DNA of 39,814 nt, taken from Siminovitchia terrae. Its GTDB lineage: Bacteria; Bacillota; Bacilli; Bacillales; Bacillaceae_C. Positions within the stretch are counted from its first letter, which is position 1. The number at the start of each line of letters is the position of its first letter. Under the pieces are notes generated by a model that was not told the origin of the DNA, made no database searches, and saw nothing but the letters and a program-made list of their open reading frames with translations. A program made the position numbers and the translations under genes. Positions 17,074 through 33,022 of this stretch are shown in pieces. Location: the NCBI RefSeq assembly GCF_003605405.2, contig NZ_QYTW02000023.1:51590-91403 (forward strand), read 5' to 3'.

Positions 17074-17102
17074 AAAGTGCCGGCGTGAGTCGGCACTTTT
17101 TT
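17074..17102 (+). terminator. Terminator of the TetR-permease-hydantoinase operon
   Basis: Perfect 9-bp arms (17074-17082 and 17091-17099), GC-rich, with an 8-nt loop, followed by a T run. It begins 2 bp after the hydantoinase stop codon. Confidence 0.9.
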
Positions 17103-17144: not shown

Positions 17145-17395
17145 GCTGTCTGGATAGTATTTCTGGCTATCTGCACAGTATATTGCTTTATTGGACATTA
17201 TCCTGGTTTATTGGACAGTAAATTATTATATCGGACAGTATTCTGGTTAGTTGGACAGTATTTTCTTTTCCTGGACAGTACTCTTGGCTATTTGGATAGT
17301 ATCTTAATTTCCTGGACAGTGTTCCATCCTTCTCGGATTGTATTTTACTTTTTTAGACAGTATTCCGTCTTTCTTAGATCACATATTTCCCATAT
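17145..17395. repeat. Degenerate 20-21 bp tandem array 1
   Basis: Copies of a core close to GGACAGTATT recur at 17152, 17173, 17193, 17213, 17233, 17253, 17273, 17294, 17314, 17335, 17355 and 17376, that is at steps of 20 or 21 bp only. The cores are well kept and the intervening 10 bp vary but are T-rich. The array fills the whole space between the convergent hydantoinase and FAD-oxidase genes. There is no coding frame and no exact repeat, so it is not a CRISPR. Confidence 0.85.
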
Positions 17396-17413
17396 TATCC
17401 AGACACCATTTAA

Positions 17414-17441
17414 GGCAGGGTTCATCAAGCTGAACCCTGCC
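17414..17441 (-). terminator. Terminator between convergent genes
   Basis: Perfect 11-bp GC-rich arms (17414-17424 and 17431-17441) with a 6-nt loop, 17 bp after the stop of the oxidase gene. The tail on the minus strand (TTAAATGG) is weak in T. It may also stop plus-strand read-through (TCTTTGG). Confidence 0.7.
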
Positions 17442-17457
17442 TCTTTGGAATGAGCAT

Positions 17458-18576
17458 TTAATATACATTTTCTGTAACGGGCCTCATCGGATCGTACGCT
17501 AAGATATCTATTTCCAGTTCTTCACCCAGTGCGACTTTTGCTGCGATCATCCCAGCATATGGCCCCATTGTTAAGCCTGAGGAACCCAATCCGTTTGCGA
17601 TAACCAATCCTTTTATAGACGAAACCTCTCCAAGTAACGGCAAGCCATCTTTTCCAAATGGCCTGAATCCAATACGGATTTCCTCTACTGTGCCGTCTGA
17701 AAGTCCAGGGGCCACAGACAAAGCCTCGTCAAGCACTTCCTTTACGCCGCCTGCTGTCATACGGTAATCAAACCCAGAACCTGTTTCTCTCGTTGCACCA
17801 GCAACCACCCGAGATTTATCGAACGAAACTAAATAATGGCTACTCTGCGGAATAATGACCGGCCATTCAGACGTATCCGCTTCTGGAATGCGCATGTGTA
17901 CAATCTGGCCTCGCTGTGGTTCCACAGAGATGTCCAACCCTAACGGTGCAAGCAACTTGGACATCCACGACCCTGCGGCAACAAGTACTACATCCGCGGG
18001 AAAAAATTCATCATCCACATGAACACCAGCCATCTTTCCTTCTTTCACTTCAAGACTGGCCTCTCCAGATAGAAACTGAGCACCATGCTTTTCGGCTCCC
18101 CTTTTTAAAGCATCTCTCAGCAAAATTCCATCTACACGAGCTGCTCCCCCAATATAAACAGCTTCTAAGTCACTTCTTAATGGTGGAAAAAGCTTTTGCG
18201 CTTCTTCAGAGGATAACCTCCGCAATTCTCCGACTTCAGGACAATCCATTTTCCGCTGTTCAATTTTCTGCTCAAGCTTATCCAGATCTTCTTTATGATT
18301 GCTTACCGCCAAAGCCCCTACCCTGGCGTAACTTAGGTTGGTTTCACCATCTTCTTTTAGCATTGAAACGAGTGACGGATAGTAACAAGCTCCTTCTTTG
18401 TATAGAGCGTACCGTTCCGGTTGCTCCTCTAACCAAGGGCAAATAATCCCGGCTCCCGCTCTTGTGGCCTGCCCCTCGTGATCTTGATCAATGACTGTCA
18501 CCTCGACGCCTTTTTTCACCAAATGGTATGCTGCACTAGCTCCTACAATTCCTGATCCAACTACTATCACTTTCAT
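17458..18576 (-). CDS. FAD-dependent oxidoreductase, D-amino-acid/glycine oxidase (DAO) family
   Basis: The protein has 372 residues. The N-terminal Rossmann FAD site is GSGIVGASAAYHL (residues 7-19), followed by an acidic residue at the end of strand 2 (TVIDQD). A central substrate-binding beta domain and a C-terminal IANGLGSSGLTMGP segment that closes over the flavin complete the DAO fold. Members oxidise glycine, sarcosine, proline or D-amino acids. This one could act on an amine or amino acid released by the neighbouring hydrolases; that link rests only on location. It is monocistronic and convergent to the hydantoinase operon. Confidence 0.9.
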   Translation of the reverse strand: MKVIVVGSGIVGASAAYHLVKKGVEVTVIDQDHEGQATRAGAGIICPWLEEQPERYALYKEGACYYPSLVSMLKEDGETNLSYARVGALAVSNHKEDLDKLEQKIEQRKMDCPEVGELRRLSSEEAQKLFPPLRSDLEAVYIGGAARVDGILLRDALKRGAEKHGAQFLSGEASLEVKEGKMAGVHVDDEFFPADVVLVAAGSWMSKLLAPLGLDISVEPQRGQIVHMRIPEADTSEWPVIIPQSSHYLVSFDKSRVVAGATRETGSGFDYRMTAGGVKEVLDEALSVAPGLSDGTVEEIRIGFRPFGKDGLPLLGEVSSIKGLVIANGLGSSGLTMGPYAGMIAAKVALGEELEIDILAYDPMRPVTENVY

Positions 18577-18685
18577 ATGTTCACACCCTTATATAAAAGT
18601 CTCTCAAGTACAGTTTATCAAAAACTCTGATCACATAAGAATAAAATTTCAGATTTGCCAAACAATAGGAATTGGAGGTGTAGTT

Positions 18686-18826
18686 ATGAAGCGCGATGAT
18701 AGTGTACGAAGCAAAAAAAGAGTCGTTACAAGCGTGAACCCGCAAGGACTAACTGAGGACGTTGCAAACCAGGAACCAAAGACCAAGCTGGAGGATCGAG
18801 CGAAAAAGTCGAATACCAAGATTTGA
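18686..18826 (+). CDS. Small basic hypothetical protein (46 aa)
   Basis: A short gene with a strong GGAGGTG site 5-6 nt before the ATG, 46 codons and an excellent terminator right behind it. The protein is very hydrophilic and rich in Lys, Arg, Asp and Glu (MKRDDSVRSKKRVV at the start, KLEDRAKKSNTK at the end), probably disordered, with no membrane segment. I do not recognise the family. Small charged proteins of this kind are common in Bacillaceae, often expressed in sporulation, but nothing here proves that. Signals on both sides make it more credible than a chance frame. Confidence 0.72.
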   Translation: MKRDDSVRSKKRVVTSVNPQGLTEDVANQEPKTKLEDRAKKSNTKI

Positions 18827-18833
18827 CCCATAA

Positions 18834-18876
18834 AAAAGCCTTTTAGCAAAAACATCTCGTTAGCTAAAAGGCTTTT
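18834..18876 (+). terminator. Terminator of the small-protein gene
   Basis: Perfect 14-bp arms (18834-18847 and 18863-18876) with a 15-nt loop, ending in TTTT followed by ATTT. It begins 8 bp after the 46-codon frame. Confidence 0.85.
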
Positions 18877-18975
18877 ATTTCTTCATATCAAACATCTGCC
18901 GACCAGCGGCATTAGTAAGCTAATTCTGTAACAAAATTCCTACAAGGCTATTCAGAACAGGCAACTTCTCCCATT

Positions 18976-19167
18976 ATCAAATGCGCCTTGGCGTATTTAC
19001 GCCCAGATTTATCGAGCACCGCTCGATAAATTTCCTCTGAAAATCTGTGGCATCCGCCGGAGGCTTTAACTTTATTCAGCCGGGGTTTGCCCCCCACTGA
19101 ATGGAATAACAATATGCATTCATCTCACTACTTACAGAAGTGGAGACTTCTGCTGAATGAAGTTAAA
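18976..19167 (+). repeat. Structured dispersed repeat, copy B (about 192 bp)
   Basis: Second copy of the repeat described at 12313-12507, same orientation, differing at a limited number of positions (for example GAGCACC against GAGCTCC in a loop, and CCCCCC in the GGGG hairpin). Its last bases (GAAGTTAAA) include the stop codon of the convergent YjiH gene at 19163-19165, so the repeat boundary coincides with the gene end. Confidence 0.85.
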
Positions 19168-20554
19168 AAATCCAATGCGCAACGAGCACAACAATTGGCA
19201 ACGTGATTGATGTCCTCAACAAGAAGATCAAAATCAAATCTTTCAGATTGACCGGCAGTTTGGAACCGAGCAACAATCCGCCCATTTCGGATAAATATAC
19301 AAGCTGCGTAACTGAAACACAGCCGATAACGAAACGTGTCATTTCGCTTTCTATACCACTTCCAATAATCGCTGGTAAAAACATATCCGCAAATCCGATG
19401 ATCATGGTCTGTGAAGCAGCAGCCGCTTCCGGAACTTGCAACACGGAAAGAATCGGGATAAACGGCATTCCTAAATATTTGAACACCGGCGTGTATTCAG
19501 CGATAACCACACCGACCGTCCCTATCGCCATGACCACAGGAATGACGCCAAGCCACATTTCAATTACGTTCCTAAAGCCTTCTTTGATAATGGATGATAC
19601 ATTATTATTTTTATTCGCCTGCAAAACAGCTTCGCTGATTCCCCATTTGAGCGGGTTCGTATTAGACGGAATTCCTTCTTCGGCTTTTAATTCCGTATGT
19701 TCATATCCCGTATCCGGCTTTCTGGACAAAGGTGGTATTCTTGGCATAATAATAGCAGCCACTAAGCCTGCGATAACAATCGTTGCATAATATTCAAGGA
19801 AATAATCTTCCAGTTTCAAATATTGGTTTACCACAATAGTAAAAGTGATCGATACGACTGAAAATGTTGTTGCAATGACAGCAGCTTCACGCTTTGTATA
19901 GTAGCCTCCTTCATATTGCTTGGAAGTGAGCAGCACTCCGATTGTACCGTCACCGACCCAAGAAGCAAGGCAATCCAGCGAAGATCGGCCGGGAATTTTA
20001 AATAAAGGCCGCATGACCTTAGCCAGCAAAGCACCAAACAATTCAAGCAGGCCGAAATTCAACAGCAGCGGCAAGAAAAATCCAGCCAACAGAAACGTGG
20101 TAAATAAAACTGGAATCAAATCATATGCGAGCAATCCACCCGTATTTTCATTGCCAATCCATTCGGGTCCTACTTTAAACACAGACATTACAGAGAAAAC
20201 CGTCCCTAAAATCCGGGTCACAAGCCAACCATTTGACACATGAAAAACCGTGTAAAGGAAGGAATTTTTCATGATAAATGCCGGCTTAAAAACCCGTGAA
20301 ACAATGGATGCCAGAACTGATAAAATCATTAACCAGGTTGCTGCAACCGGAACATAATCAACGAATAAATTGTTGATCACACCTGCCATAAATGCGACAG
20401 GAATCGTAATTCCTTCCTCCGTTTTTACTGGAACCATGAACAAATAGATACCTACAAGAGACGGAATGATAAATTTCAAATATTGGACAAAAGAATAGGA
20501 CCTCAATGATACAGGCTTATTTTGGGAAGACATTCCTTTAGCTGGAAAACTCAT
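19163..20554 (-). CDS. yjiH: YjiH family membrane protein (nucleoside-recognition/GATE domain)
   Basis: The protein has 463 residues, with about 10-12 membrane helices. The conserved gate segments are visible: SWVGDGTIGVLLTSKQYEGGYYTKREAAVIATTFSVVS in pieces near residues 190-230, and IIGFADMFLPAIIGSGIE near 385. YjiH-type proteins are putative transporters of unknown substrate. It lies downstream of the deacylase-thiolase genes but behind a terminator and a 650-bp gap, so it has its own promoter; AAGGTGAG precedes the ATG. The stop codon lies in a dispersed repeat. Frequent co-location with amino-acid catabolic genes suggests uptake or export in that pathway (inference). Confidence 0.87.
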   Translation of the reverse strand: MSFPAKGMSSQNKPVSLRSYSFVQYLKFIIPSLVGIYLFMVPVKTEEGITIPVAFMAGVINNLFVDYVPVAATWLMILSVLASIVSRVFKPAFIMKNSFLYTVFHVSNGWLVTRILGTVFSVMSVFKVGPEWIGNENTGGLLAYDLIPVLFTTFLLAGFFLPLLLNFGLLELFGALLAKVMRPLFKIPGRSSLDCLASWVGDGTIGVLLTSKQYEGGYYTKREAAVIATTFSVVSITFTIVVNQYLKLEDYFLEYYATIVIAGLVAAIIMPRIPPLSRKPDTGYEHTELKAEEGIPSNTNPLKWGISEAVLQANKNNNVSSIIKEGFRNVIEMWLGVIPVVMAIGTVGVVIAEYTPVFKYLGMPFIPILSVLQVPEAAAASQTMIIGFADMFLPAIIGSGIESEMTRFVIGCVSVTQLVYLSEMGGLLLGSKLPVNLKDLILIFLLRTSITLPIVVLVAHWIF

Positions 20555-20764
20555 GTGTTCTCACCTTTCATATAAAAACCTATCTCAGAATAATTTTTAA
20601 AAATCCATACTAATGCATTATTATGCATGATTAACTATAGTTTGTCCAGTGGAAATTACTATTTTAGTATAGACTATGAAAGATAAATTCTTCGGATTTT
20701 GAAAAGAAATTACAGGTTGTTCATTTCAGGAAATTATTATGCACCTGTCCCCGTTTGCGGGACA

Positions 20765-21180
20765 TATACAGATCATTCCATGCTGGACGCAGACTATTTT
20801 TTCCTGAGTTGAATTGTATTTTCCCAATTACGGAGGATACTCAATCCATGAAAGATCTTTCATACCAATTACGGAGCACATTTTCTGAGTCAGATCTAAC
20901 TAGATCATTAAGGATTGTGCTCAATTTATGAAAGTCACGATCATTTTTTCCTATAGCTTAAATCATATCTGCTAATTACAGATCGTGCTCACTCCGTTCT
21001 GGACCATTTATGCAAGTCTCAAAAATTAGACTAGACCCACAATTATTGCGACCCTGTGCCGGATCATCAATACCAAACTCGGATCATATTTTCCCCAGCT
21101 AGATCATATATGCCTATTCGCAGATCAAATTCACTTCATGTCGGTTCGTATTTTCTCTCAGTAGGCAAGATCACATATAT
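20765..21180. repeat. Degenerate 20-21 bp tandem array 3
   Basis: Cores close to GATCATATT recur at 20771, 20792, 20811, 20836, 20854, 20874 and 20893, then less regularly, then at 21062, 21082, 21102, 21123, 21144 and 21169. Most steps are 19-21 bp. The array lies between the terminator of the M20 gene and the start of yjiH and explains most of a 650-bp gap. The remainder (20600-20700) is AT-rich upstream DNA of yjiH with two ATGCAT palindromes at 20613 and 20623. Confidence 0.7.
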
Positions 21181-21195
21181 CTCCAATGAAAAAAT

Positions 21196-21219
21196 CTGCC
21201 AGGACTTACCTCCTGACAG
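21196..21219 (-). terminator. Terminator containing the M20 gene stop codon in its loop
   Basis: 9-bp arms (21196-21204 and 21211-21219, one G-U pair) enclose a 6-nt loop that contains the TAA stop of the M20 deacylase at 21206-21208, and are followed on the minus strand by ATTTTTTC. The last codons of the gene therefore double as the terminator stem. Confidence 0.85.
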
Positions 21220-22495
21220 TTTTTTCATAATCCTTATCAAGTTCACACCAATCCACAATCGTCGCCGCAATGATTTTCGCCGCTTCAAATATCTTTTCCA
21301 CCTCAATGGCTTCGTTTGGAAAATGCGCGAGACTCGTGATTCCGGGACCGAAAACTACGCTCGGTGTGTCTCCGACCTGTGATAGAAGCCCGCCGTCTGT
21401 ACCCCAAGGTGCAGCCTCAATCACAGGCTCTTCCCCAGCCACTTCTTTAAAATTGTTGATCAATGAGTTCATTAATGGATGGTCTGTTTTGATTTCTCCA
21501 GGGACCCATCTCGCCCCGAACCACTCGACTTCAACAGGATGTTCTTTAAACCATTCATCCTTCTCTGCCAGCCTTATCAGCCATATTTCCATTTCCGCTT
21601 GAACTTCTTCCATTGTCTCGTTAGGCGCAATTCCAATGCGCCCTTCCAGTTCGACGATGTCTGGAACGGAAGATGGCCAGTCTCCGCCTTTGATAGCACC
21701 TATATTAATAGGGACAGGAATCGGAATATTGTCGTATAACGGGTCCGTAATTCGATCGTTTCTTATTTTTTCTAATTCCTTCACATGTTCAGTGACGATA
21801 AACGTTTTATCAATCGCACTGACGCCGTGGTATCTTGTGCCGCCATGTGCCGTTCTCCCTGTCACAATGAGTCGGAACCACTTGGACCCCTGCTGTTTCG
21901 GAAAAATTTTCATATTGGTCGGTTCCGGAATGATCGCTGCATCCGCTTTGTACCCTTTAAGAATAGTATCCAGGGTTCCAGCACCGCCGCTCTCTTCTTC
22001 CACAACGCTTTGAAAAATGACGTCACCTTTTAAACGGATTCCCAAGGATTTGATCGCATCAAGGGCAATCATCAAGGAAGCATTGCCTCCTTTCATGTCA
22101 GTCGCGCCCCGACCGTACATTTTTCCGTTCACGATTTCCCCGCTGAATGGTCCATTATCCCATTGTTCGTGGTCACCTTCAGGTACTACATCCACATGTC
22201 CATTTAGTATGATCGACTTTCCTCCGCCGCTTCCTTTTAAAACGCCCACCACATTCGGGCTGTTCTTAAACGTTACACGATTCGAATAGAAATAAGGATG
22301 CTTCTGCAATCTTTCACCATCCAATTCCCAGACATCAACATCTACATTAAGATTGGTTAAAAATTGGGCAACGTTTTCCTGAACTTCTTTTTCATTTCCT
22401 TGAGTGCTCGCAAGTTGAACCAATTTTTGTAAAAATTCTATATGTGCTTGTCTATTGTCATCAATCCATCGATTAATCCTCTCTTTAACTATCAT
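21206..22495 (-). CDS. M20 family metallo-deacylase (ArgE/DapE-like)
   Basis: I start it at ATG 22495, with GAGGTGG 5 nt upstream, giving 429 residues. The M20 metal-site motifs are complete: GHVDVVPEG (His, Asp), GRGATDMKGG (bridging Asp), VVEEESGG (catalytic and metal Glu), IIPEPTN and a late His (SLAHFPNE). The dimerisation lid carries TGRTAHGG. Such enzymes remove N-acetyl, N-formyl or N-succinyl groups from amino acids. It follows the thiolase gene after 10 bp in one transcript, and by context releases a free amine or amino acid for the aminotransferase encoded upstream. The substrate is unknown. Confidence 0.92.
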   Translation of the reverse strand: MIVKERINRWIDDNRQAHIEFLQKLVQLASTQGNEKEVQENVAQFLTNLNVDVDVWELDGERLQKHPYFYSNRVTFKNSPNVVGVLKGSGGGKSIILNGHVDVVPEGDHEQWDNGPFSGEIVNGKMYGRGATDMKGGNASLMIALDAIKSLGIRLKGDVIFQSVVEEESGGAGTLDTILKGYKADAAIIPEPTNMKIFPKQQGSKWFRLIVTGRTAHGGTRYHGVSAIDKTFIVTEHVKELEKIRNDRITDPLYDNIPIPVPINIGAIKGGDWPSSVPDIVELEGRIGIAPNETMEEVQAEMEIWLIRLAEKDEWFKEHPVEVEWFGARWVPGEIKTDHPLMNSLINNFKEVAGEEPVIEAAPWGTDGGLLSQVGDTPSVVFGPGITSLAHFPNEAIEVEKIFEAAKIIAATIVDWCELDKDYEKTVRR

Positions 22496-22505
22496 GATTA
22501 CCACC

Positions 22506-23687
22506 TCACAAAGTCATATTTTCATAGATTACCGAAATTCCCATACCTCCGGCCATGCACATAGTCACCAATCCATATTTCGTTTTCGAGCGGATCATCT
22601 CATGGATAAGTGTGACACTCAATTTGGCACCAGTTGCACCAACAGGGTGACCGAGCGCGATCGCTCCTCCGTTAACATTCACGCGCCTGTCATCCAAACC
22701 GAGCTCCTTGATCACAGCTAGCGCTTGGGCAGCAAAAGCTTCGTTCAATTCAATCAAACCGATATCATCGAGCGTTACCCCCGCTTTTTCCAGCGCTTTT
22801 TTTGTCGCTGGAACTGGTCCAATCCCCATGATCGAATGGTTCACACCGGCACTTGCATATGCTTTTACTTTGACGAGCGGCTGGAGACCCTCTTGTTCAG
22901 CGCGTTTAGCGGACATCATCAACAATGCCGCAGCCCCATCATTCATCGGACACGCATTCCCTGCCGTTACGAAACCATCCTTTTTAAAGACCGGCCTTAA
23001 GGTCGCCAGTTTTTCCTTGTCGATGGATGCCCTTACACTTTCATCTGCTGTAAAAAGTTGTTTCCCTTCCCTTGTCAGGAGTTCAACGGGGACAATCTCA
23101 TCCGAAAATTTATTTTCCTGGATCGCCTTCGCTGCCTTCACATGGCTGTCATAAGCAAATTGATCCTGTTCTTCTCGTGAAATTTGATATTGTTCAGCTA
23201 ATCGCTCAGCTGTTATACCCATATGCTCATTCCCAAGCGAACAAACTAGGCCATCTGCCATCAGCGCATCTGCCATGACAACATTACCAAACTTGGAACC
23301 CCAGCGGTTCTTGACAATGTAAGGAACATTACTCATGCTCTCCGTTCCGCCGACAACAATCACTTCGTTCTGCTCTGTTTGAATAGCGGCAGTCGCATTT
23401 GTGATGGCTTTCAGGCTTGAACCACATGCTTTGATGACAACATAAGCCGGTGTTTCCTCAGAGAATCCCGCCTTCTGTGACGCGATTCTGGCCGAATTTA
23501 ACCCGCCGCCGTGCACATACCCGTGTCCGAAGATCACTTCTTCTACACTGCTTTTAGGTAAACTTGTTTTTTCCATTAATTGTTCTAAAACTTGTTTCCC
23601 CAGCTCTGCGGCCTCTACTCTTTTTAATGATTTGCCAAAGGCACCAACCGCCGTTCTGACACCAGCCACGATCACTGCATCCTGCAT
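22506..23687 (-). CDS. Acetyl-CoA C-acetyltransferase (thiolase)
   Basis: I start it at ATG 23687, behind AAGGAGG, giving the standard thiolase length of 393 residues; an in-frame ATG at 23711 lacks a ribosome site. The active-site set is complete: Cys88 in IKACGSSLKAI, the NEAFA loop, GGAIALGHPVGATGA with its catalytic His, and the C-terminal Cys in VTMCMAGGMG. It cleaves acetoacetyl-CoA to two acetyl-CoA in catabolism. Next to CoA-transferase genes it completes an acetoacetate-degrading (Ato-like) route. Upstream stands a 20-bp repeat array, so transcription may be separate from or continuous with the CoA-transferase genes. Confidence 0.94.
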   Translation of the reverse strand: MQDAVIVAGVRTAVGAFGKSLKRVEAAELGKQVLEQLMEKTSLPKSSVEEVIFGHGYVHGGGLNSARIASQKAGFSEETPAYVVIKACGSSLKAITNATAAIQTEQNEVIVVGGTESMSNVPYIVKNRWGSKFGNVVMADALMADGLVCSLGNEHMGITAERLAEQYQISREEQDQFAYDSHVKAAKAIQENKFSDEIVPVELLTREGKQLFTADESVRASIDKEKLATLRPVFKKDGFVTAGNACPMNDGAAALLMMSAKRAEQEGLQPLVKVKAYASAGVNHSIMGIGPVPATKKALEKAGVTLDDIGLIELNEAFAAQALAVIKELGLDDRRVNVNGGAIALGHPVGATGAKLSVTLIHEMIRSKTKYGLVTMCMAGGMGISVIYENMTL

Positions 23688-23728
23688 CGTAAAACCTCCT
23701 TTTTTATTCACCTAACAACCAGATTTTT

Positions 23729-23905
23729 TGGTCCGCTCTATTTGATATTTGGTAATCTCATTTTTAGAAAGGGTGCCACTTTTTAATAGCTGTTCCATTC
23801 AACTAGTGGATACCTCACTATTCCGATTTTTTGTTAATCGTTTTCAATGTGGGAAGTTGCATTTTTTAATTTTCGCTACTGTCTCTCCACGGGTAGTTCG
23901 CTATT
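23729..23905. repeat. Degenerate 20-bp tandem array 4
   Basis: Nine units of exactly 20 bp start at 23731, 23751, 23771, 23791, 23811, 23831, 23851, 23871 and 23891. Shared positions are a G/T-rich opening (such as GGT or GGG), a C-A/G-C-T-like centre (CTCA, CACT, CGCT) and a following T run. The last unit runs into the stop codon of the CoA-transferase beta gene. The gap between that gene and the thiolase start is fully taken up by this array. Confidence 0.65.
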
Positions 23906-24554
23906 TTACATGATCAGGAACATGAAGTTCCGCTCCTGTAGCATTGATTACATCTTCAACTGTATACGGGTCTTTCACTTCTATTAAACTTAATCCTTGT
24001 TCAGTGACCTCGATGACGGCCATGTCTGTAATAATCAGATTGACACATTTCTCTGCAGTAAGAGGCAAGGTGCATTTTTGTACAATCTTCGGATTGCCAT
24101 GCTTGTCCGTATGATTCATCAGTACAATCACCTTTTTGGCTTTTTGCGCCAAGTCAACCGCGCCGCCCATTCCTGACACGATTTTTCCTGGAACAATCCA
24201 ATTCGCTAAATCGCCGCTTTCACTCACCTCAAACGCTCCTAAAATCGTCACGTCCAGCAACCCGCGGCGGATGATTCCAAATGCAAGGGTACTGTCAAAA
24301 TAGGAAGCACCCGGCGCAACAGTTATCGGAATTCCGCCTGCATTACATAGGTTAGCATCTTCCTCACCCTTTAATGGAGACGGACCCGTACCCAGAACTC
24401 CATTTTCAGCATGAAACATAACATTAACATTCGGAGAAATATAGTTGGCAACCAAAGTAGGAATGCCGATTCCGAGATTGACAACCATTCCATCCTTAAT
24501 TTCTTCCGCAGCCCTTTTTGCAATGGCTTCGCGCACACTTACTCCCATGCCCAT
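23901..24554 (-). CDS. 3-oxoacid CoA-transferase, subunit B
   Basis: The protein has 217 residues. The catalytic glutamate is Glu50 in HAENGVLG, and the subunit signature GGIPITVAPGASYFDS and the NHTDKHGNPKIV segment are present. With subunit A it moves CoA from succinyl-CoA or acetyl-CoA to acetoacetate or a related 3-oxo acid. The gene overlaps the end of subunit A by 16 nt, with an AGGGGTG site inside that gene. The exact acceptor (acetoacetate, butyrate or 3-oxoadipate type) cannot be decided from the sequence, but the thiolase next door favours acetoacetate. Confidence 0.92.
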   Translation of the reverse strand: MGMGVSVREAIAKRAAEEIKDGMVVNLGIGIPTLVANYISPNVNVMFHAENGVLGTGPSPLKGEEDANLCNAGGIPITVAPGASYFDSTLAFGIIRRGLLDVTILGAFEVSESGDLANWIVPGKIVSGMGGAVDLAQKAKKVIVLMNHTDKHGNPKIVQKCTLPLTAEKCVNLIITDMAVIEVTEQGLSLIEVKDPYTVEDVINATGAELHVPDHVK

Positions 24555-25216: not shown

Positions 25217-25382
25217 TACCAACGCTCCTCATATTTATGCTTTTGAAAAACAATTTGCTTTCCTGGAATTGGTTCCATTTTCAAAAAGGCTTGGGGATTT
25301 CCGGATTTACCTTTACTTCCTAAAAATGCTATTAATTTTTTCAAATCTACCTGAAACACTCATAACTTTCTTGATTTTCCAG

Positions 25383-25707
25383 ATTTCTAGGAATACTAGC
25401 CAAGTTTTCGATTTACTATCCGATTTTCGGATATACTATCCAATTTTCCGATTTACTGGCCAACTTTCAGATATACTTTCCGATTCCATGATTTACTGGC
25501 CGAATTTCTCGATTTTCTGTCCACTTTTAAGAAATACTTGCCATTTTTCTAATTTACTGGCCGATTTCAAGATATACTTTCCGATTCACTGGATTTACTG
25601 GCCAATGTTCGAAAACGCTTGCCAATTTGCCGGTTTACTGTCCAGATTTCGAAAATACTATCCAATTTTCCGATTTTCTGGTCAACTTACGAAAATACTG
25701 GCCGCTT
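25383..25707. repeat. Degenerate 20-21 bp tandem array 2 (16 units)
   Basis: A core close to TTACTGGCCRA or ATACTATCCRA ends in CC at 25400, 25420, 25440, 25460, 25480, 25500, 25521, 25541, 25561, 25581, 25602, 25622, 25642, 25662, 25682 and 25702. Steps are 20 or 21 bp throughout. Neighbouring units tend to alternate between TTTACTGG and ATATACTT types, hinting at a 40-bp super-period. The core is close to the reverse complement of the array 1 core. The array fills the gap between the aminotransferase and CoA-transferase genes. Confidence 0.88.
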
Positions 25708-25723
25708 CTAGCGCGCTTTCCCC

Positions 25724-27067: not shown

Positions 27068-27085
27068 GATATCCACCTCAATTTT

Positions 27086-27099
27086 CGTAAGCGTTTACT
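27086..27099 (+). promoter_or_regulatory. Candidate cre (CcpA) site before the aminotransferase gene
   Basis: CGTAAGCGTTTACT matches the consensus TGWAARCGYTWNCW at 13 of 14 positions. It sits about 19 bp before the aminotransferase ATG, downstream of any promoter in the gap, so bound CcpA would act as a roadblock. This fits glucose repression of a catabolic operon. Confidence 0.6.
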
Positions 27100-27213
27100 C
27101 TATAAAAATGTTATTATGTGTATAAGAAAATTATAGCCGACACAGAGATGCCGTTCTATTCGACCAAAATGCAAAAAACAACGGCATTCATTGTACTTTG
27201 TGTATAAAAGGGG

Positions 27214-28851
27214 TTGCTTAAAATAGCTATCAGCATTCATAACGCACTTCAATTGCCAGTCATGAAAAAAACAAGATTGGTAGCAGGCCATCAAGGGGGC
27301 GAAAACAGTATAAAATGGGTGACCATTGTTGAAGTTCTGGAAGATATCGGCCGATTGCAGCCCGGGGAATTTTTGATTACGACAGGGTTTGGATTATCAG
27401 AAAACGAGGAGAAGCTTGAGGTATTCCATCAGCTGCTAAAATCCAAACTGCTATCGGGAATCGCCATCTATACAAGTTTTTATATGAAGGAAATTCCGGC
27501 TAGCTTTATTGAATTAGCCAACGAAAATGCTCTCCCGTTGATTGAAATTCCAACAGACATCAATTTTTCCGAAATCACCAAAGCGATACTGGAACAAATT
27601 GTAAACAACCAGATGCATCTGCTTGAGCAGGCGGAAAACATTCATCGTGAATTGACGAATCTTATACTAAATGACCAAAGTTTAACGGAAGTGACCGAGA
27701 GGTTGGCCCAACTGACGAGCTCGCATATTCTCATCTTTAATGAGTTTTACGACACCATTTATTCAAGCGATAACGACAATTTGACATGGAACCCAGTCAA
27801 TGGCGACGAAATTGACATCTCGAAACACCTTATAGCTAGCTTAAAAAGAGAATCCAAAGTGAATTTTACGTTTAAAAATCACATTTCCACTGTTTATCCA
27901 ATCATCGCGAAGCAATCGTGTTATGGCTGGATTGTCATGACGAAACCGGAGGCCGATTGGCAGGAGCTTGACGATATCGCCATAGAGCAGGCTGCCCCCA
28001 TCTATGCTATGGAATTTTTGAAAAAACAGGCGATCGAAGAAACCCAATTACGGATTCAAAGCAATTTTATCGAGGACATATTCAATAAAAATTATATAAA
28101 TGAGAGAATCATCATTGACCACGGATTGAAGCTTGGTTATGACCTCACTTTAAATCAGTCCGTTTTTCATCTGACTTTTAAACATCCTGAAAAAATTGAC
28201 GTCAATTTGACAGACAGGCTGTACCATTTGACTGATCAAATTCTAGGTCAGAAAAAAAAGCAACATTTGATTCAAACAAAATTAAATTCCATTATCTTTT
28301 TGACAAATGTCATAGGGGAAACCAAAGAAGAAATATATAAACATTCCATTAGTCTCGCGAAGGATTTATTAAAAAATTGGACGTACTATTTTCCAAACGT
28401 GGATTTGATTATAGGGATTGGAAAAGATTACAAACAGGTGGATGAATTAGGAAAAAGTGCGCAGGAAGCTCATTACGCAGTAAAATTGAGTGATTTAGTC
28501 AGCAAAAAAGTAAATATTGTACATTACGATGATCTGGGAATGTACGACTTGCTGTTAGAAATGGAACGCTCGGGGATTCCTTTAATGTCCATTTATGAGC
28601 AACATATGAGCAGTTTGCTCAGTAATAAAGAAATTGATTTAATCGAAACGCTGGACAGTTATTTCAGGAATAACCAAAGCATTCAAAAAGCTGCGGAAGA
28701 ATTGTATATTCATCGACATACATTAAGATATAGACTGAATCAGATTGAAATCCGTACAGGTCTGGATATCAAATCCACAGAAGACCTGCTAAAACTTCAG
28801 CTCGGTGTTATGGCATATAAATTAGTGAACATATTGAAAAAAGAGCCGTGA
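27214..28851 (+). CDS. PucR family transcriptional regulator
   Basis: The protein has about 540 residues. The N-terminal PucR domain (about 5-120) has ALQLPVMKKTRLVAG and VTIVEVLEDIGRLQPGEFLITTG. A middle region resembles the GGDEF-like part of CdaR/PucR regulators (about 290-420). The C-terminal HTH_30 is NQSIQKAAEELYIHRHTLRYRLNQIE (given in two parts here: helix 1 NQSIQKAAEELYIH, helix 2 RHTLRYRLNQIE). Such proteins activate nitrogen- and amino-acid-catabolic operons. It is divergent from the aminotransferase operon and is its likely regulator. The start is unclear: TTG 27214 stands directly against AAAGGGG, and the next well-spaced codon (27223) is ATA. Confidence 0.88.
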   Translation: MLKIAISIHNALQLPVMKKTRLVAGHQGGENSIKWVTIVEVLEDIGRLQPGEFLITTGFGLSENEEKLEVFHQLLKSKLLSGIAIYTSFYMKEIPASFIELANENALPLIEIPTDINFSEITKAILEQIVNNQMHLLEQAENIHRELTNLILNDQSLTEVTERLAQLTSSHILIFNEFYDTIYSSDNDNLTWNPVNGDEIDISKHLIASLKRESKVNFTFKNHISTVYPIIAKQSCYGWIVMTKPEADWQELDDIAIEQAAPIYAMEFLKKQAIEETQLRIQSNFIEDIFNKNYINERIIIDHGLKLGYDLTLNQSVFHLTFKHPEKIDVNLTDRLYHLTDQILGQKKKQHLIQTKLNSIIFLTNVIGETKEEIYKHSISLAKDLLKNWTYYFPNVDLIIGIGKDYKQVDELGKSAQEAHYAVKLSDLVSKKVNIVHYDDLGMYDLLLEMERSGIPLMSIYEQHMSSLLSNKEIDLIETLDSYFRNNQSIQKAAEELYIHRHTLRYRLNQIEIRTGLDIKSTEDLLKLQLGVMAYKLVNILKKEP

Positions 28852-28862
28852 TGGCTCTTTTT
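28839..28862 (+). terminator. Terminator overlapping the PucR gene stop
   Basis: Perfect 9-bp arms (28839-28847 and 28853-28861) with the TGA stop (28849-28851) in the loop, then T residues. The last lysine and glutamate codons supply the A-rich arm. Confidence 0.87.
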
Positions 28863-28904
28863 AAAGCTGCACTGAATACCCCAAAGGATAGCTTATTCAG
28901 GAAC

Positions 28905-29108
28905 TTATGTTGTCGCAAGGCCGCGTGACGTTTACTTGAGGTATGTTCACAAGACATTGATTGAATCAAGCTGGTTTCTTACAATAAGCCACCATCGACT
29001 CCGACGGCGCAAGTTGTCACGCCCTCAACCTGTCGAGTGCATAAGCGCTAGGATATACAAGCACTCTCTTTCTCTCGTCAGGAGGGGGCTAGACTATACT
29101 ACACTAGC
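28905..29108 (-). other. GC-richer non-coding segment with pseudoknot potential
   Basis: About 200 bp between the convergent PucR and ABC-transporter genes, richer in GC than its surroundings. On the minus strand TTGAGG and GGCGTGAC are followed, about 80 nt later, by CCTCAAG and GTCACGC in the same order, so the two pairings cross and would form a pseudoknot. Further pairs are GGCG/CGCC, ACTCGAC with GTCGGAGT, and AGTGC/GCACT. There is no recognisable protein; a 61-codon plus-strand frame has no ribosome site. It may be an RNA gene or the scaffold end of a lost IS200/IS605-type (omegaRNA-like) element. I cannot name it. Confidence 0.4.
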
Positions 29109-29112
29109 GTTC

Positions 29113-29892
29113 TTACTTTGAAATATCTTCTCCAAAGTATTTCTCGCTGATTTCACCGTATTTTCCATTTTCTTTAAGTGTTTTCAAAGCTTTATTCACA
29201 TCTTTCAGCAGTTTTTCATCTTCTTTCCTGATAGCTATTCCCATTTGATCCAAGTAAATTGGTTCACCAACTTTTTTGATCTTCAAGTTGTTTTCTTTGA
29301 TGGCGTACATTCCAACGAGTTGGTCAGTAAGGACAGCATCCAAGCGCCCTTTAACCATCAAATCTTGCAGTGCAGTCACGTCACTGTCGTATGTTTTTAC
29401 ATCGTCTGTATATTCTTTGGCATTTTCCTCAAACGTACTGGAAACAACGACACCGATTGTTTTGCCTTTCAAGTCATCCGCACTTTTAATAGAATCATTA
29501 TCTTCATTTACAAAAATTTGCGCACCTGATTCATAGTAAGGATCAGTAAAATTGACTTCCTTCAATCTTTCATCTGTTATAGCCATACTTCCGATGATGG
29601 CATCAAACTTGTCCGTCTGCAAAGCAGCGATGATCGTTTGCCATGGATTCTTAACAGGTTGAGGATTCATTCCTAATTCTTCTGCAATCGCAGTACCAAT
29701 TTCCACATCAAAACCGGCCAATTTATTATTATCAGAATAGTTGAATGGCGGATAGAGTCCGCTTGATGCGAAGACAAAGTCCTCGCCTTTTTTCCCTTCC
29801 CCTGACGATGCTTCTTTGTCCTTTGATCCACACGCAGCTAAAAGAGTCACAAAAATTAGCCCCATCAACATTACATAAATTGATTTTTTCAA
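29113..29892 (-). CDS. Polar amino-acid ABC transporter, substrate-binding lipoprotein (cystine-type)
   Basis: The protein has 259 residues. It begins with a lipoprotein signal peptide with lipobox LLAAC and lipidation Cys21, then an SBP_bac_3 domain: GLYPPFNYSDNNKLAGFDVEIG, the DAIIGSMAIT hinge strand, DERLKEVNFTDPYY, and DLKGKTIGVVVSST. This family binds polar amino acids such as cystine, glutamine or arginine; the closest match I recognise is the TcyA/FliY-like cystine type, without proof. It is the last gene of a permease-ATPase-binding protein operon. No ordinary terminator follows; the structured segment at 28905-29108 lies directly downstream. Confidence 0.92.
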   Translation of the reverse strand: MKKSIYVMLMGLIFVTLLAACGSKDKEASSGEGKKGEDFVFASSGLYPPFNYSDNNKLAGFDVEIGTAIAEELGMNPQPVKNPWQTIIAALQTDKFDAIIGSMAITDERLKEVNFTDPYYESGAQIFVNEDNDSIKSADDLKGKTIGVVVSSTFEENAKEYTDDVKTYDSDVTALQDLMVKGRLDAVLTDQLVGMYAIKENNLKIKKVGEPIYLDQMGIAIRKEDEKLLKDVNKALKTLKENGKYGEISEKYFGEDISK

Positions 29893-29909
29893 CTTGATTC
29901 CCCCTATTT

Positions 29910-30632
29910 TTATAAAACTTTTCCTAAGAATTGTCTGGCTTTCTCGCTTTGTGGGTTTGTAAAAAATTGCTCAGGAGTGCTTTCTTCGGCGATGACTCCG
30001 TTATCCAGAAAAACAATTCGATCGGCCACCTCGCGTGCAAAGCCCATTTCATGCGTTACAACTACCATCGTCATGCCTTCCTGAGCAAGTTCCTTCATAA
30101 CATTCAATACTTCCCCTACCAATTCAGGATCTAATGCAGATGTCGGCTCATCAAATAATAAGACCCTCGGACTCATAGCCAATGAGCGGGCAATTGCCAC
30201 CCTTTGTTTCTGTCCCCCGGACAGCTTTTCTGGATACACGTGGGCCTTGTCAGCCAAACCTACTTTTTTCAACAGCTCCATCCCTTGCTGAATCGCCTTT
30301 TCCCTTTCCATTTTTCGAACAATGATCGGAGCTTCGATGATATTTTCAATCACTGTCTTATGAGGAAACAGATTGAAATGCTGAAACACCATACCAATGT
30401 CCTCTCTTACTTTGTTCAGTTTGATGTTTGTGGGGTCTACTTTTGTATCCTCAAACCAGATTTCTCCTTCGTCTTTTACCTCCAAATAATTCAAACACCG
30501 AAGAAGAGTGCTTTTTCCTGACCCGCTCGCCCCAAGAATAACAACAACCTCTTTGTTTTTAATCTCTAAATCTATCCCTTTTAGCACATGTAAATCCATG
30601 AAATATTTATGCAAATTTTTTACTTTTATCAT
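29910..30632 (-). CDS. Polar amino-acid ABC transporter, ATP-binding protein
   Basis: I start it at ATG 30632, where GGGAGAG is 7 nt upstream, giving the standard 240 residues. All ATPase motifs are seen: Walker [11 protein letters not shown]-loop [11 protein letters not shown], signature [16 protein letters not shown], Walker [15 protein letters not shown], and the switch His in VVTHEMGFA. It powers import together with the permease encoded 1 bp upstream and the lipoprotein encoded 17 bp downstream. Confidence 0.95.
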
Positions 30633-30633
30633 C

Positions 30634-31290
30634 TTATACTCTCCCTGTGTCCAGCCGTTTTTCAATTTTGTTTGTAATGAGTGTGAAAATGACGATCAGA
30701 ACCAAATAATAAATCCCTGCAATTGTATAAAATTCCAACTGTCTGAAGGTGGCAGCGGCTTGGCTCATAGAAAGGTTGAAAATCTCTGTAATTCCAATGA
30801 AAGCGACAAGTGAAGAGTCTTTCAGACCGATAATAAACTGATTCCCAAGAGATGGAATGGAGCGCTTGAATGCCTGTGGAAAAATAATCCTTCTCATCGC
30901 CTGCTTTCTCGTCATACCTAGAGATTCAGCCGCTTCCATCTGTCCTTTGTCAATTGATTGTATAGCTCCCCTGAAAATTTCCGCAATATACGCCCCACTA
31001 TGAATAGCGAGCGCGATGGCTCCAGCCCAAAATGCAGATAACACAACAACCTGCGTAATTCCAAAATACAGCCACATGATTTGAACAATCAGCGGCGTTC
31101 CGCGAATAACTCCTATATAAAGATTCGCAATCCAGGAAAGGATTTTCTTATTGGACAGTTTCATCAATGCAACAAACAACCCGATGATGCTCGCTAAGAT
31201 TAAAGAAACAACCGTGATTTGCAGAGTAACCAAAGCGGCTTGCATAAAACCGCTGAACGTCGAAATTAAACTATCCATAAATTGTCCCAT
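30634..31290 (-). CDS. Polar amino-acid ABC transporter, permease
   Basis: The protein has 218 residues with about five membrane helices, of the HisM/GlnP class. The EAA loop that contacts the ATPase is [20 protein letters not shown] (residues about 131-150). The segment [16 protein letters not shown] near residue 65 is typical of polar amino-acid permeases. It is the first gene of the three-gene operon, and its stop is followed after 1 nt by the ATPase start. Only one permease gene is present, so a homodimer is expected. Confidence 0.95.
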
Positions 31291-31684
31291 TAGTACAACA
31301 CCCTTTGCTTTTTTTAAAACTTCAGAAAGCCCTTACACTAAATCTACTATCTGTATCGAAAACACATTTATATAGTAACAATAAGTTGACAGCGATTTCA
31401 TTATCCAATTTATCATAATGTAGGAAACGTTTTTATACATGTTGTATAAAAGAAAGGTGAGATCGGGGATGGTGCCGGGGGAGAAGAGAAATTTGGAAGA
31501 AGTTAAGAGTATTTCTGAATTCTGAAGAGTATCCCGGCAAACTGGATAGTATCATAAATATTTGAGAATGTCCGGGCAAACCGAAAAACTAAATAGCTTT
31601 CGGAGCAAGTCAAAATCCCGTAAATAAAGGATTTTACCGAAATCCGTCGAATTATTTCATAATAAATCAAATTGAGGTGTTTAA
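31291..31684. other. Intergenic region upstream of the ABC operon and the NERD gene
   Basis: 394 bp without a gene. The left part (31330-31440) is AT-rich and must hold the ABC operon promoter; I could not choose convincing -35/-10 boxes. The right part holds array 5. GAGGTG at 31674-31679 is the NERD ribosome site. Confidence 0.4.
31495..31620. repeat. Degenerate 20-21 bp tandem array 5
   Basis: Cores close to GAAGAGTATTTC or GGATAGTATC have their central GT at 31510, 31530, 31550 and 31571, with weaker units at 31590 and 31610. Steps are 19-21 bp. The unit core AGTAT is shared with array 1 in the same orientation. Confidence 0.65.
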
Positions 31685-32668
31685 ATGATTAAGAAATTCA
31701 GGAGAATTCCCTTAAAAATCCTGATAATGGAAGCACTTTTAAGAAGAATCCCCCCAAATCATCCGAGTAAATTCCACATTGAGGAAGAGCTAAGATTTAG
31801 GAAAGCAGGTTACCGCGGGGAATTGTCCCTCGACTATCATTTGTCACAGTTGCCTCAAAACGAACACTTTATCTTCCATGATCTTCGGCTTCCCCTGTGG
31901 AATAACACTTTTTTTCAAATAGACGCTCTCCTTTTATCAAGACATTATTTCACAAATTATGAAGCGAAAAATCATACCGGCACGTTGACTTTCGAGGAGC
32001 AGCAAATGCTCCAAACGTATAAAGGTCGAACAGAATCGTATCCCAATCCCATTACTCAGGCGGAGAACCAACAATATCATTTGGAAAATCTGATAAGAAA
32101 AAAACTGGATATTATTCTTCCCGGCACCTCGTTTGTTGTCGTCACAAACCCTTCCTCCATTATCAAATTTGATCCCCAATATGAGAAGATCGCCAGTAAA
32201 AAAGTAATACGTGCAGCTGCTATTCGGCAAAATTCCGAGTTGTTTTGGACAAAACAACAGAAGCAACTCATATCATACGCTGACCTTCAAAAGATTTCCC
32301 AACTCCTATTAAAGCTTCATACTCCTTCAAAACCCGATATTTTACAAGAATTTCGAGTTGATAAAAGTGACATTCACCCAGGCGTTTATTGTGATAAATG
32401 CAAGCTTTTGTCTTTTAAAAGGGCGTTTGGAACATGGAAATGCAATAAGTGCGGATTTGCAGATAAAATGACACACGTTCAGGCTTTGATTGATCACCTT
32501 CTTTTGAATGGAAACACCATTACAAATTCACAATTCCGCTATTTTTTACAATTCGATTCCGTTACTGTTGCCACCCATCTGTTGGGATCACTAAATCTGC
32601 CCTTTGAAGGAACCTTTAAGGATAGAAAATATCATTTATCATTAGAAGCGTTGAAAAAGTGGATTTAA
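31685..32668 (+). CDS. NERD domain protein with C-terminal zinc ribbon
   Basis: The protein has 327 residues. The NERD (nuclease-related) domain covers about 35-160, with the PD-(D/E)xK-like residues Asp80 in FQIDALLLS and Glu93-x-Lys95 in NYEAKNH. A zinc ribbon follows with Cys236/Cys239 (CDKC) and Cys253/Cys256 (CNKC). A helical C-terminal part contains MTHVQALIDHLLL. NERD proteins are thought to be nucleases or DNA-processing factors; the role is unproven. The gene has a GAGGTG site 5 nt before the ATG, stands alone, and is flanked on both sides by 20-bp repeat arrays with the same core. Confidence 0.88.
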   Translation: MIKKFRRIPLKILIMEALLRRIPPNHPSKFHIEEELRFRKAGYRGELSLDYHLSQLPQNEHFIFHDLRLPLWNNTFFQIDALLLSRHYFTNYEAKNHTGTLTFEEQQMLQTYKGRTESYPNPITQAENQQYHLENLIRKKLDIILPGTSFVVVTNPSSIIKFDPQYEKIASKKVIRAAAIRQNSELFWTKQQKQLISYADLQKISQLLLKLHTPSKPDILQEFRVDKSDIHPGVYCDKCKLLSFKRAFGTWKCNKCGFADKMTHVQALIDHLLLNGNTITNSQFRYFLQFDSVTVATHLLGSLNLPFEGTFKDRKYHLSLEALKKWI

Positions 32669-32754
32669 TAAATAGGGAATGACAACATGCATGGGAGGTA
32701 ACACTTTGAAAAAAAGACCTTGCTCTTCGAATAGGGAGGAACCTTCAAAAAGCT

Positions 32755-32868
32755 AATTGTAGTTCTTAAATCCGAAGAGTATTTCTTAAAAGCCAAGAGT
32801 ATTCTCCTAAATCCGAATAGTATCTCTCAAAATTTAAGGGTATCACTGAATCAAAGGATGCTCCTCAT
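32755..32868. repeat. Degenerate 20-21 bp tandem array 6
   Basis: Units with a core close to CCGAAGAGTATTTC have their GT step at 32760, 32780, 32800, 32821, 32841 and (weak) 32861. The core matches array 5 on the other side of the NERD gene, in the same orientation. Confidence 0.7.
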
Positions 32869-32889
32869 TAATAAGGAATCAATAAAAGT

Positions 32890-33015
32890 GAGGCTGGAAC
32901 ATAAATTGAAACCTAATTGATTTTAGTACAAATCGTGAAAAATAAAACCGCATGAAATCAAGGTTTAAATTTGATTTCAGGTGGTTTATTCATTTTAGGG
33001 TTTTGACCCAGCCTC
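32890..33015. repeat. Long nested palindrome between convergent genes, probable bidirectional terminator
   Basis: Outer arms GAGGCTGG (32890-32897) and CCAGCCTC (33008-33015) enclose an inner hairpin with about 20-bp arms at 32941-32961 and 32971-32990. Further A/T-rich pairing lies between the two. A T-rich tail (ACTTTTATTG) follows on the minus strand. The placement between the NERD and atoE stops fits a bidirectional terminator. The GAGGCTGG/CCAGCCTC-ended form resembles mobile terminator-like repeats seen in other Firmicutes. Confidence 0.72.
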
Positions 33016-33022
33016 GCCCTTT

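Follow-up and report, generated by a model that had tools for sequence, protein, structure and literature searches.

What are the degenerate arrays that lie between genes in this part of the Siminovitchia terrae genome, and what holds their units at 20-21 bp? An earlier note on the window (the whole 39,814-nucleotide stretch analysed here) had described six gene-free gaps as periodic arrays. This description proves mostly real: five of the six gaps are supported, four of them statistically, with lag-20/40/41 periodicity beyond dinucleotide shuffles, and one through its orthologues (Table 1). Shuffle sets differ between runs, so z values for the same gap vary slightly. The gap of array 2 is otherwise weak (best single lag 41 at z 3.9), with a window score of z 3.6 (p 0.003) and of z 1.5 (p 0.067) in its L043 orthologue. 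The gap at 31495-31620 reaches p 0.10 by itself and is read as a decayed array because orthologous gaps hold arrays: 11 fitted units in B. norwichensis (L043), where the whole-gap z is only -0.2, 12 in S. fordii (L046; z 6.1), and relics of 2-3 units in L044 and S. fortis (L045). An array at 23729-23905 is not supported, because its own test is weak (combined p 0.04, best single lag equalled in 20% of shuffles) and three orthologous gaps are all negative (z 0.3, 0.0 and 0.9). Chance or low-complexity AT-rich periodicity applies there.

Table 1. Features of the window; z is the autocorrelation of each gap against dinucleotide shuffles, lags 20/21/40/41/60/61 combined.
Feature	Position	Strand	Description	z (gap)
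Array 1	17152..17374	+	11 fitted units, core GGAcAGTATt; spacings 20 (7), 21 (3)	12.3 (17145-17395)
Array 2	20765..21180	no strand	highly degenerate, GATCAT-like core; between terminator-like site and next gene	5.4 (20765-21180)
Claimed array 3	23729..23905	no strand	not supported	
Array 4	25394..25715	-	16 fitted units, core TTGGCCAGTA/GGATAGTA; spacings 20 (13), 21 (2)	17.8 (25383-25707)
Array 5	31495..31620	+	relic, AAGAGTATTTC units	
Array 6	32755..32868	+	GAAGAGTATTTC units, convergent gap; unit fit did not segment it	7.4 (32755-32868)
Terminator-like hairpin of M20 peptidase gene	21196..21219	-	outside array 2	
NERD-domain gene	31685..32668	+	Pfam PF08378, E 7.7e-17; arrays 5 and 6 on its two sides	

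Array 1 occupies a convergent gap and has a hairpin on either side (by eye, near 17077-17102 and 17413-17442), and the terminator-like site 21219-21196 on the minus strand lies outside array 2; the idea that arrays fill whole gaps is thus only partly right. The terminator-like hairpin is weak by itself, because 15 such sites were found against 13.1 expected in shuffles. Orthologues of array 1 are present in L043 (z 9.4) and L044 (z 10.6) and absent from L045 (z -0.2). Array 2 is 62 bp shorter in L043, or about 3 units. Array 4, flanked by aminotransferase and CoA-transferase genes, has orthologues of the same core type in L043 and L044, and one with a GAGAGTA core in S. fortis L045 (z 6.1). 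Array 6 has orthologues in L043 (z 7.4) and L046 (z 12.9, 30 fitted units), and is absent from L044 together with the NERD-domain gene.

Unit length was fitted under a flat 16-25 bp prior. In G000, 17 gaps reach a z20 of at least 5, and segmentation worked for 10 of them (unsegmented: C12:262094, C12:276143, C45:79817, C16:15922, win:32669, C3_85k:8360 and C2_45k:15240), and most fitted arrays lie beyond the motif-free scan described below, at loci chosen for holding the core. Among 625 A/F-type units, 498 measure 20 bp and 116 measure 21, leaving 11 of other lengths (7 at 19, 2 at 22), and the unit of 20 or 21 bp is correct for the GGACAGTAT/AAGAGTAT type. A 21 occurs in 30 of 41 fitted rows and a 19 in 5; one row, the poly-A/N artefact L239, has neither, and is kept in row counts but removed from identity and unit-length figures. 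B arrays show no lean to 21, their off-length units being 8 at 19 and 4 at 21. The largest array, of about 1.2 kb, has 58 fitted units (L322). Two turns of relaxed B-DNA take 21 bp (21.0), and the mean unit is 20.17 bp in A/F arrays and 19.99 bp in B arrays. A period of 20.0-20.2 falls short of two relaxed turns, so the claim that all cores face one side of the helix is not established, and for relaxed B-DNA it fails: cores at the observed means would rotate roughly 30 degrees per unit, and a helix of about 10.0-10.1 bp per turn would be needed to match such spacings.

The AGTA(T/A) core does occur in both orientations, as had been noticed. Within arrays, identity is 0.72-1.00 over the fitted ten-base cores and 0.40-1.00 over the unit remainder, and the core is common to loci with different spacers, in a comparison where anchoring units on AGTA inflates those four positions. 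The first ten fitted positions are more conserved than the rest by a mean difference of 0.23 (31 arrays); the same core contrast in simulated uniform arrays averages 0.14 (26 of 40 fittable), with a maximum of 0.31. That the units are not exact repeats holds for the window and fails at C12:275564-275889 in the same genome, where the array is near-exact (97%, 60-bp unit). Cores unrelated in sequence share the 20-bp ruler. Per substitution, off-length units are rarer in B arrays, and units outside 20-21 bp rarer in A/F arrays, than in ordinary intergenic DNA; with 21s counted as indels, A/F indels per substitution are not distinguishable from background (p 0.17).

How widely are such arrays scattered? 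They occupy many intergenic sites in several Siminovitchia genomes. A motif-free scan of 332 gaps, in 680 kb of three array-containing contigs, found 11 gaps with z of at least 5 at period 20, as against 2 at period 19, 1 at period 21 and none at 11 other periods; at z of at least 4, period 20 gave 12 gaps and each other period 0-5. One match, C12:276143, is probably chance periodicity, no array being visible there. Convergent gaps hold arrays in 6 of 48 cases and other gaps in 5 of 284 (p 0.0018, motif-free scan), and 4 of 41 fitted rows lie in gaps called divergent. Dimers of GGACAGTAT at 20 bp, allowing at most 2 mismatches, number 92 in G000, 412 in G001 and 84 in G003, with none in G002, G004 or G005 and 0-1 per genome in the reversed control; exact core dimers stand at 23 separate places in G001. 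For AGAGTAT the count is 271 in G005 against 12 in the control. In 20-kb stretches of array-rich genomes, no gap reached z 6 (0 of 29 in G001, 0 of 23 in G005). In a sample of 299 genomes of the order that holds no other Siminovitchia, CGCCATATAA dimers are absent and CGCACGATAA dimers occur in one, G000 itself. A wider family defined by TTCGGACAGNNTTTC was rejected: matches appear in 28 of 150 order genomes, usually one per genome, the same as the reversed control. Only G135 among these 150 holds the motif many times (17), some copies at 52-bp spacing. Core orientation in Cytobacillus arrays alternates at 20 and 32 bp, 52 in total.

Some of the arrays lie next to the ends of a short BOX/MITE-like element, which consists of a head (about 70 bp), n units of 20-21 bp and a tail (about 95 bp), with terminal inverted repeats TATAARYTTGAAC. 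A recognised head or tail match accompanies 13 of 26 fitted GGACAGTAT arrays, and both ends 5 of 26. The ends are common to non-orthologous loci, and the number of fitted units per copy runs from nearly zero to 34. Tail matches number 20, in 3 of 6 genomes, of which at least one (L343) is really a head. In the five element-borne copies compared, 13 (L328), 12 (L342), 11 (L339), 10 (L336) and 9 (L331) of the first 14 bases of the inverted repeats match. In one 170-bp copy (L361:1345-1514) the only ORFs of at least 30 aa, of 38 and 41 aa, cross its ends. Two filled/empty site pairs were read: one shows a TA duplication, its sequences differing by 3 bases immediately left of the site, and the other an approximate TA duplication with a 2-base difference at the site. 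Copies that have no paired empty site show no duplication by eye. TA duplication is a mark of Tc1/mariner-IS630 transposition.

Unit number also differs between genomes. One orthologous insertion holds 2 units in G000, and in G001 an assembly gap together with 32 fitted units, a difference unpolarised between growth and loss. Several between-species length differences are whole units, among steps of 41, 60, 62, 19-20 and 380 bp; some changes, of about 9, 11 and 15 bp, fall off unit steps. Recognised ends occur at only 2 of the 11 motif-free-scan arrays (C12:303060 and C45:168916), and no A-type ends at 10 G005 array loci. When the flanks of 18 B arrays were compared, only orthologous pairs and one repeat common to 3-4 loci emerged. 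The window arrays match neither head nor tail even at E 10 (nhmmer, both models), and because they show no element ends their own mobile origin can only be inferred.

These observations lean somewhat towards satellite-like arrays of a non-coding unit of about 20 bp, borne by a BOX/MITE-like element whose ends were later lost. A putative Tc1/mariner-IS630-type transposase would move the element in trans, slippage or unequal recombination would resize the array within the inserted copy, and decay of the ends would leave naked arrays such as those in the window. Arrays would persist mainly between gene ends, where, we propose, they are least harmful. The scheme would require no host function, and a protein that binds the arrays and fixes their spacing may act in addition. 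Of the three proposals in the earlier note, relics of a locally homogenised amplifying element fit best, given the inverted-repeat ends, the TA duplication at an orthologous empty site, the 2 against 32 units and the unit-step lengths; the end-less arrays of the window speak against it. The scarcity of ends in scan arrays, the few empty sites, the non-unit steps and the rarity of off-length units were counted against this reading.

Could a protein be the real keeper of the spacing? The arrays are possible binding sites, as had also been proposed: a putative oligomeric DNA-binding protein of nucleoid, insulator or roadblock type would contact them every two turns, selection keeping core and spacing while spacers drift. 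We regard this as a serious if rather unlikely account of the whole. It would explain the predominance of 20- and 21-bp units, the stronger conservation of the first ten positions, a core shared (anchoring on AGTA aside) by loci with differing spacers, the array kept in the same gap in 4 of 4 species examined, and the alternating cores of Cytobacillus. Against it, the period differs from two relaxed turns, unrelated cores would require several proteins, the core contrast of simulated arrays overlaps that of the real ones, A/F indels do not depart from background once 21s are counted, and B arrays do not lean to 21. Slippage alone is likewise no explanation of one 20-bp unit for unrelated cores. 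It is conceivable, though we think it doubtful, that the genus carries a 'satellite library' of at least three unrelated array families (GRNNAGTAW, TCGCACGATAA and CTTATAAAAGC), scattered between genes, partly mobilised by short TIR elements and all built on one 20-bp ruler. Such a ruler would imply a machine or a coating protein, acting in trans, by which DNA is read or written at intervals of about two helical turns, whatever the sequence.

Function at the RNA level (attenuator, terminator, RNA sponge or 3' UTR stabiliser) would suit the location at gene 3' ends, and the ends of one 170-nt element do pair in its fold (z -2.3, equalled by 6 of 200 shuffles); window array 4 folds slightly better than shuffles (z -2.2 and -2.5 on its strands). 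Folding is mixed, however, with z values of 0.5 (window array 1), -0.8 (a G005 array) and 0.56 (a second element); strand symmetry relative to codirectional genes (10 A/F arrays on the same strand and 12 on the opposite one, 6 B arrays on each) and the lack of any Rfam family at gathering scores also disfavour it, and the arrays at 17145 and 20765 are preceded by hairpins (read by eye) and a terminator-like site, respectively. Transcription-attenuating spacers, the remaining earlier proposal, are therefore improbable. Selection for bending by phased A/T tracts is more improbable still: units are AT-rich with one T tract each by eye, but a wedge model places 38 arrays at mean percentile 0.47 against column-permuted and 0.42 against shuffled sequence, and intrinsic curvature was rejected on that model. 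Plasmid iterons resemble direct repeats of about 20 bp, a likeness that could suggest a horizontally acquired iteron or CRISPR-like array of plasmid or phage. We give this almost no credence: one A and one B array have no plasmid match, two viral-contig matches of the A dimer are non-array, coding-looking DNA and the B dimer has none, the chromosomal sites are many, and unit remainders are related within an array. Hardly more credible overall is chance or low-complexity AT-rich periodicity, which applies to 23729-23905 and probably to C12:276143 and is refuted for the strong arrays by shuffle and reversed-pattern controls. SpoIIID and CodY box lookalikes were considered and dropped.

Where does the favoured element-borne satellite stand among known repeats? 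The unit remainders are not the unrelated spacers, nor the cores the identical repeats, of a CRISPR array. REP/BIME sequences, according to PMC3733652, are palindromic, carry GTAG or CGTC tags, and are likewise extragenic, of high copy and species-specific. Units here are same-orientation direct repeats, and by inspection their core is not self-complementary, so no palindromic unit was found. Bacterial VNTRs and minisatellites share the turnover of unit number; tandem non-coding units and whole-unit length change (some steps excepted) are found here too, but with one 20-bp ruler recurring over many loci and unrelated cores. Terminal inverted repeats (five copies) and absence of coding capacity (one copy) are those of a MITE, although not on the window arrays (nhmmer, E 10). 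The BOX module is about 45 nt long, longer than the 20-21 bp module here, of which up to 34 fitted units stand by one tail. BOX elements of Streptococcus, as described in PMC3049150, follow the plan boxA - boxB x n - boxC, and those of S. suis place the same boxB modules between different ends. Both systems are interspersed, with two conserved ends and TIRs around variable tandem modules whose number differs by copy (PMC3049150), a plan seen here in 5 of 26 fitted GGACAGTAT arrays and in short copies. The likeness is one of architecture, sequences not being compared; unlike BOX, recognised A-type ends are lacking from one half of the fitted A arrays and from the B and F types, and one clean empty site shows a TA duplication. 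The element of Siminovitchia is also a short TIR element, as are RUP and other IS630-type bacterial MITEs; RUP, linked to IS630-Spn1, is described as a simple 107-bp repeat (PMC3049150).

Satellites born in small transposons are known from eukaryotes. The same life cycle seems to run in this bacterium, and its steps can be read from close genomes: insertion, shifts in the number of units, disappearance of the ends and between-species change of core. The strict 20-21 bp unit over unrelated cores raises the question of what sets satellite monomer length. In Xenopus, as PMC9659126 describes for Xmix/Xstir and miDNA4, the satellite monomer originates within a MITE and multiplies into a tandem array; here the host is bacterial, the monomer is 20 bp, and the arrays are small and scattered.

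The window occupies C16:51590-91403 of the source genome, a 5.30-Mb draft (G000). The window's aminotransferase has Bacillus norwichensis as its top named match (99% of residues; locus L043), followed in order by Bacillus sp. HF117_J1_D (L044), Siminovitchia fortis (L045) and S. fordii (L046). The earlier note had read six gene-free gaps as periodic arrays. Combined autocorrelation at lags 20, 21, 40, 41, 60 and 61 against dinucleotide shuffles upholds four of them (table), the weakest being gap 2 (window score z 3.6, orthologue 1.5). Gap 5 is insufficient alone, and is counted as an array because orthologous gaps hold fitted units, 11 in B. norwichensis, despite a whole-gap z of -0.2 there, and 12 in S. 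fordii; relics of two to three units begin at the same place in two further species. Gap 3, also insufficient alone, is not rescued by its orthologous gaps and is unsupported as an array. All four species examined have an array of period 20 at gap 25217-25723; S. fortis has a GAGAGTA core there, the other three a GGCCAGTA-type one.

Coordinates of gaps, arrays and repeats (plain numbers count within the window; z and p are for combined lags against dinucleotide shuffles)
Feature	Position	Result
Gap 1	17145-17395	z 12.3
Gap 2	20765-21180	z 5.4
Gap 3	23729-23905	p 0.04
Gap 4	25383-25707	z 17.8
Gap 5 (array 5)	31495-31620	p 0.10
Gap 6 (array 6)	32755-32868	z 7.4
NERD gene with array 6	31531-33022	absent in L044
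Dispersed repeat, ~180 bp	18970-19165
Dispersed repeat, ~180 bp	34505-34690
Dispersed repeat, ~180 bp	about 12313-12402
Dispersed repeat, ~180 bp	C12:276692-276905
B array, apparently nested	L212:1850-4600 (G000:C16:21.9-24.6k)
Cytobacillus-type arrays	L052:9028-10006; L053; G135
Pseudogracilibacillus auburnensis array	L048:15330-15450	five units, period 21

The NERD gene with array 6, missing from the HF117_J1_D locus, where the junction falls at a short relic of array 5, is an array-bounded gene gain or loss. A dispersed repeat (TCAAATGCGCCTTGGCGTATTT ... CAGCCGGGGTTTG ... GCTGAATGGAATA) has several copies in the window and more elsewhere in the genome.

The earlier note had also proposed looking for the same period across the genome and its relatives. 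A scan independent of core motifs covered 680 kb (C12, 400 kb; C45, 200 kb; C16, 40 kb; the window, 40 kb), a non-random draw since these contigs were first met through core matches, and took in the 332 gaps measuring 100 bp or more between genes from a home-made caller. At z 5, 11 gaps had period 20, two 19, one 21 and none any of the eleven other periods from 14 to 27. Lowering the threshold to z 4 gave 12 gaps at period 20 and 0-5 at each other period. One of the 11, at C12:276143, holds no array visible by eye. The signal occurs in 6/48 convergent gaps versus 5/284 of all others (p 0.0018), and the 41 fitted rows, mostly picked by motif, comprise 24 codirectional, 13 convergent and 4 divergent gaps. 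Four reference loci of the genus gave 7/32 gaps at z 6 and period 20; the same threshold and period gave 0/214 at 28 loci from elsewhere, chiefly in Bacillaceae and relatives, 0/173 at up to 47 non-Bacilli loci, and 0/109 and 0/123 in additional 20-kb samples. Within the genus, 20-kb samples yielded 2/20 in B. norwichensis, 0/29 in HF117_J1_D (one gap at 5.2), 0/23 in S. fordii, 0/11 in G002, which is probably S. fortis since it shares an identical stretch of array and is so named below, and 0/12 in G004, a further genus genome. The arrays are therefore patchy, even in core-rich genomes.

The arrays fall into core types termed A, F and B. Exact dimers of GGACAGTAT, the A-type core, occur in 4 of 40 genomes, the source genome included. 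With two mismatches and 20-bp spacing there are 412 in HF117_J1_D, 92 in the source genome and 84 in B. norwichensis (controls 0-1), and none in S. fortis, G004 or S. fordii. S. fordii is dominated by AGAGTAT dimers (271, versus 12 in the control), of which the other five genomes hold 2-30. Exact CGCACGATAA dimers (28) are confined to the source genome among 299 genomes of the order, a sample without other Siminovitchia, as are CTTATAAAAGC dimers (19) among six genus genomes. Degenerate B arrays occupy many loci in the source genome and B. norwichensis, several at contig starts; HF117_J1_D and S. fordii have one or two matches. One B array (L212) appears to be a nested repeat, its head-units-tail blocks being themselves repeated. 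Further afield, the P. auburnensis array has the core CGCCATATAA. In Cytobacillus-type arrays, found at several places in one complete genome, TTCGGACAGC and its reverse complement alternate at 32 and 20 bp, 52 bp in total, and could possibly form hairpins.

Spacing was obtained by fitting motif chains under a prior that was flat over 16-25 bp. In 34 A/F arrays 498 units measure 20 bp, 116 measure 21, seven 19, two 22, and one each 18 and 17 (mean 20.17); in 18 B arrays 255/286 measure 20 bp (mean 19.99). Intergenic DNA outside the arrays has 17 indels to 215 substitutions (three comparisons summed); against this background, off-length units are fewer in B arrays (0.023 per substitution, p 1e-4), as are A/F units outside 20-21 (0.005, p 4e-12), and there is no A/F deficit once each 21 is scored as an indel (0.056, p 0.17), all rough tests because duplicated copies are not independent. 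A/F departures lean to 21 (21 present in 30/41 rows, 19 in 5/41); those of B do not (eight at 19, four at 21). A helical constraint is suggested, short of proof, and the mean lies below two relaxed turns.

Where could such arrays come from? A arrays at non-orthologous loci are flanked by a common head and tail, for which nhmmer gave 16 and 11 matches, respectively, in 1.52 Mb of sampled plus targeted sequence. At least one end lies at 13 of 26 fitted GGACAGTAT arrays (source genome, HF117_J1_D, B. norwichensis) and both at 5; several of the remainder reach assembly gaps. A genome search returned 20 tail matches (B. norwichensis 11, source genome 5, HF117_J1_D 4), of which one or more is really a head; the other three genomes gave nothing at E 0.001. 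Unit numbers run from almost none (L335) through two (L328) to 34 fitted (L326). The ends are inverted repeats. Taken alone, the 14-mer at the end is fairly common (one mismatch: 3-11 per genome versus 4-11 for the reversed control), so it is the longer head and tail that make the case for an element. In alignments read by eye, the empty source-genome site orthologous to one B. norwichensis copy reads ...GAATC-TA-GAAGATTG..., and the filled copy has TA on both sides; shortly to the left, the two differ by 3 bases. Another filled/empty pair, HF117_J1_D versus the source genome, agrees except at two bases. One insertion is shared, with the same head and matching flanks: it has 2 units at G000:C12:159.5k versus 32 fitted units together with an assembly gap at G001:C48 (HF117_J1_D), where the tail has been lost.

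Two observations touch on these ends. The copy flank at L336/L344 is 99.3% identical between HF117_J1_D and B. norwichensis, three other locus pairs of these genomes being 90-97%, suggesting that this flank may have passed recently between species. In S. fortis (L364, L369, L283) the end 14-mer CTATATAAGTTGAA, which alone may be chance, adjoins a different array, GTCCAAGGCCCGGTACT..., of ~52-bp period by eye, in a gap that carries a B array in the source genome and B. norwichensis.

The window arrays show no recognisable element ends, and only shared core, period and genome tie them to the element-borne ones. Because both-ended arrays are few and some length changes are not whole units, a mobile-element origin, the preferred explanation, becomes slightly less favoured and the rival reading, protein binding, slightly more. 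Orientation relative to genes is symmetric (10/12 and 6/6), which favours a role at the DNA level, or no role at all. Searches of the open PMC library brought up no description of these arrays among the matches listed; of 255 papers that contain GGACAGTAT, the 20 listed deal with unrelated topics. The element itself has a BOX-like architecture, as far as BOX elements are outlined in PMC3049150, and finds a parallel in the MITE-borne satellites of Xenopus, as summarised in the review PMC9659126.
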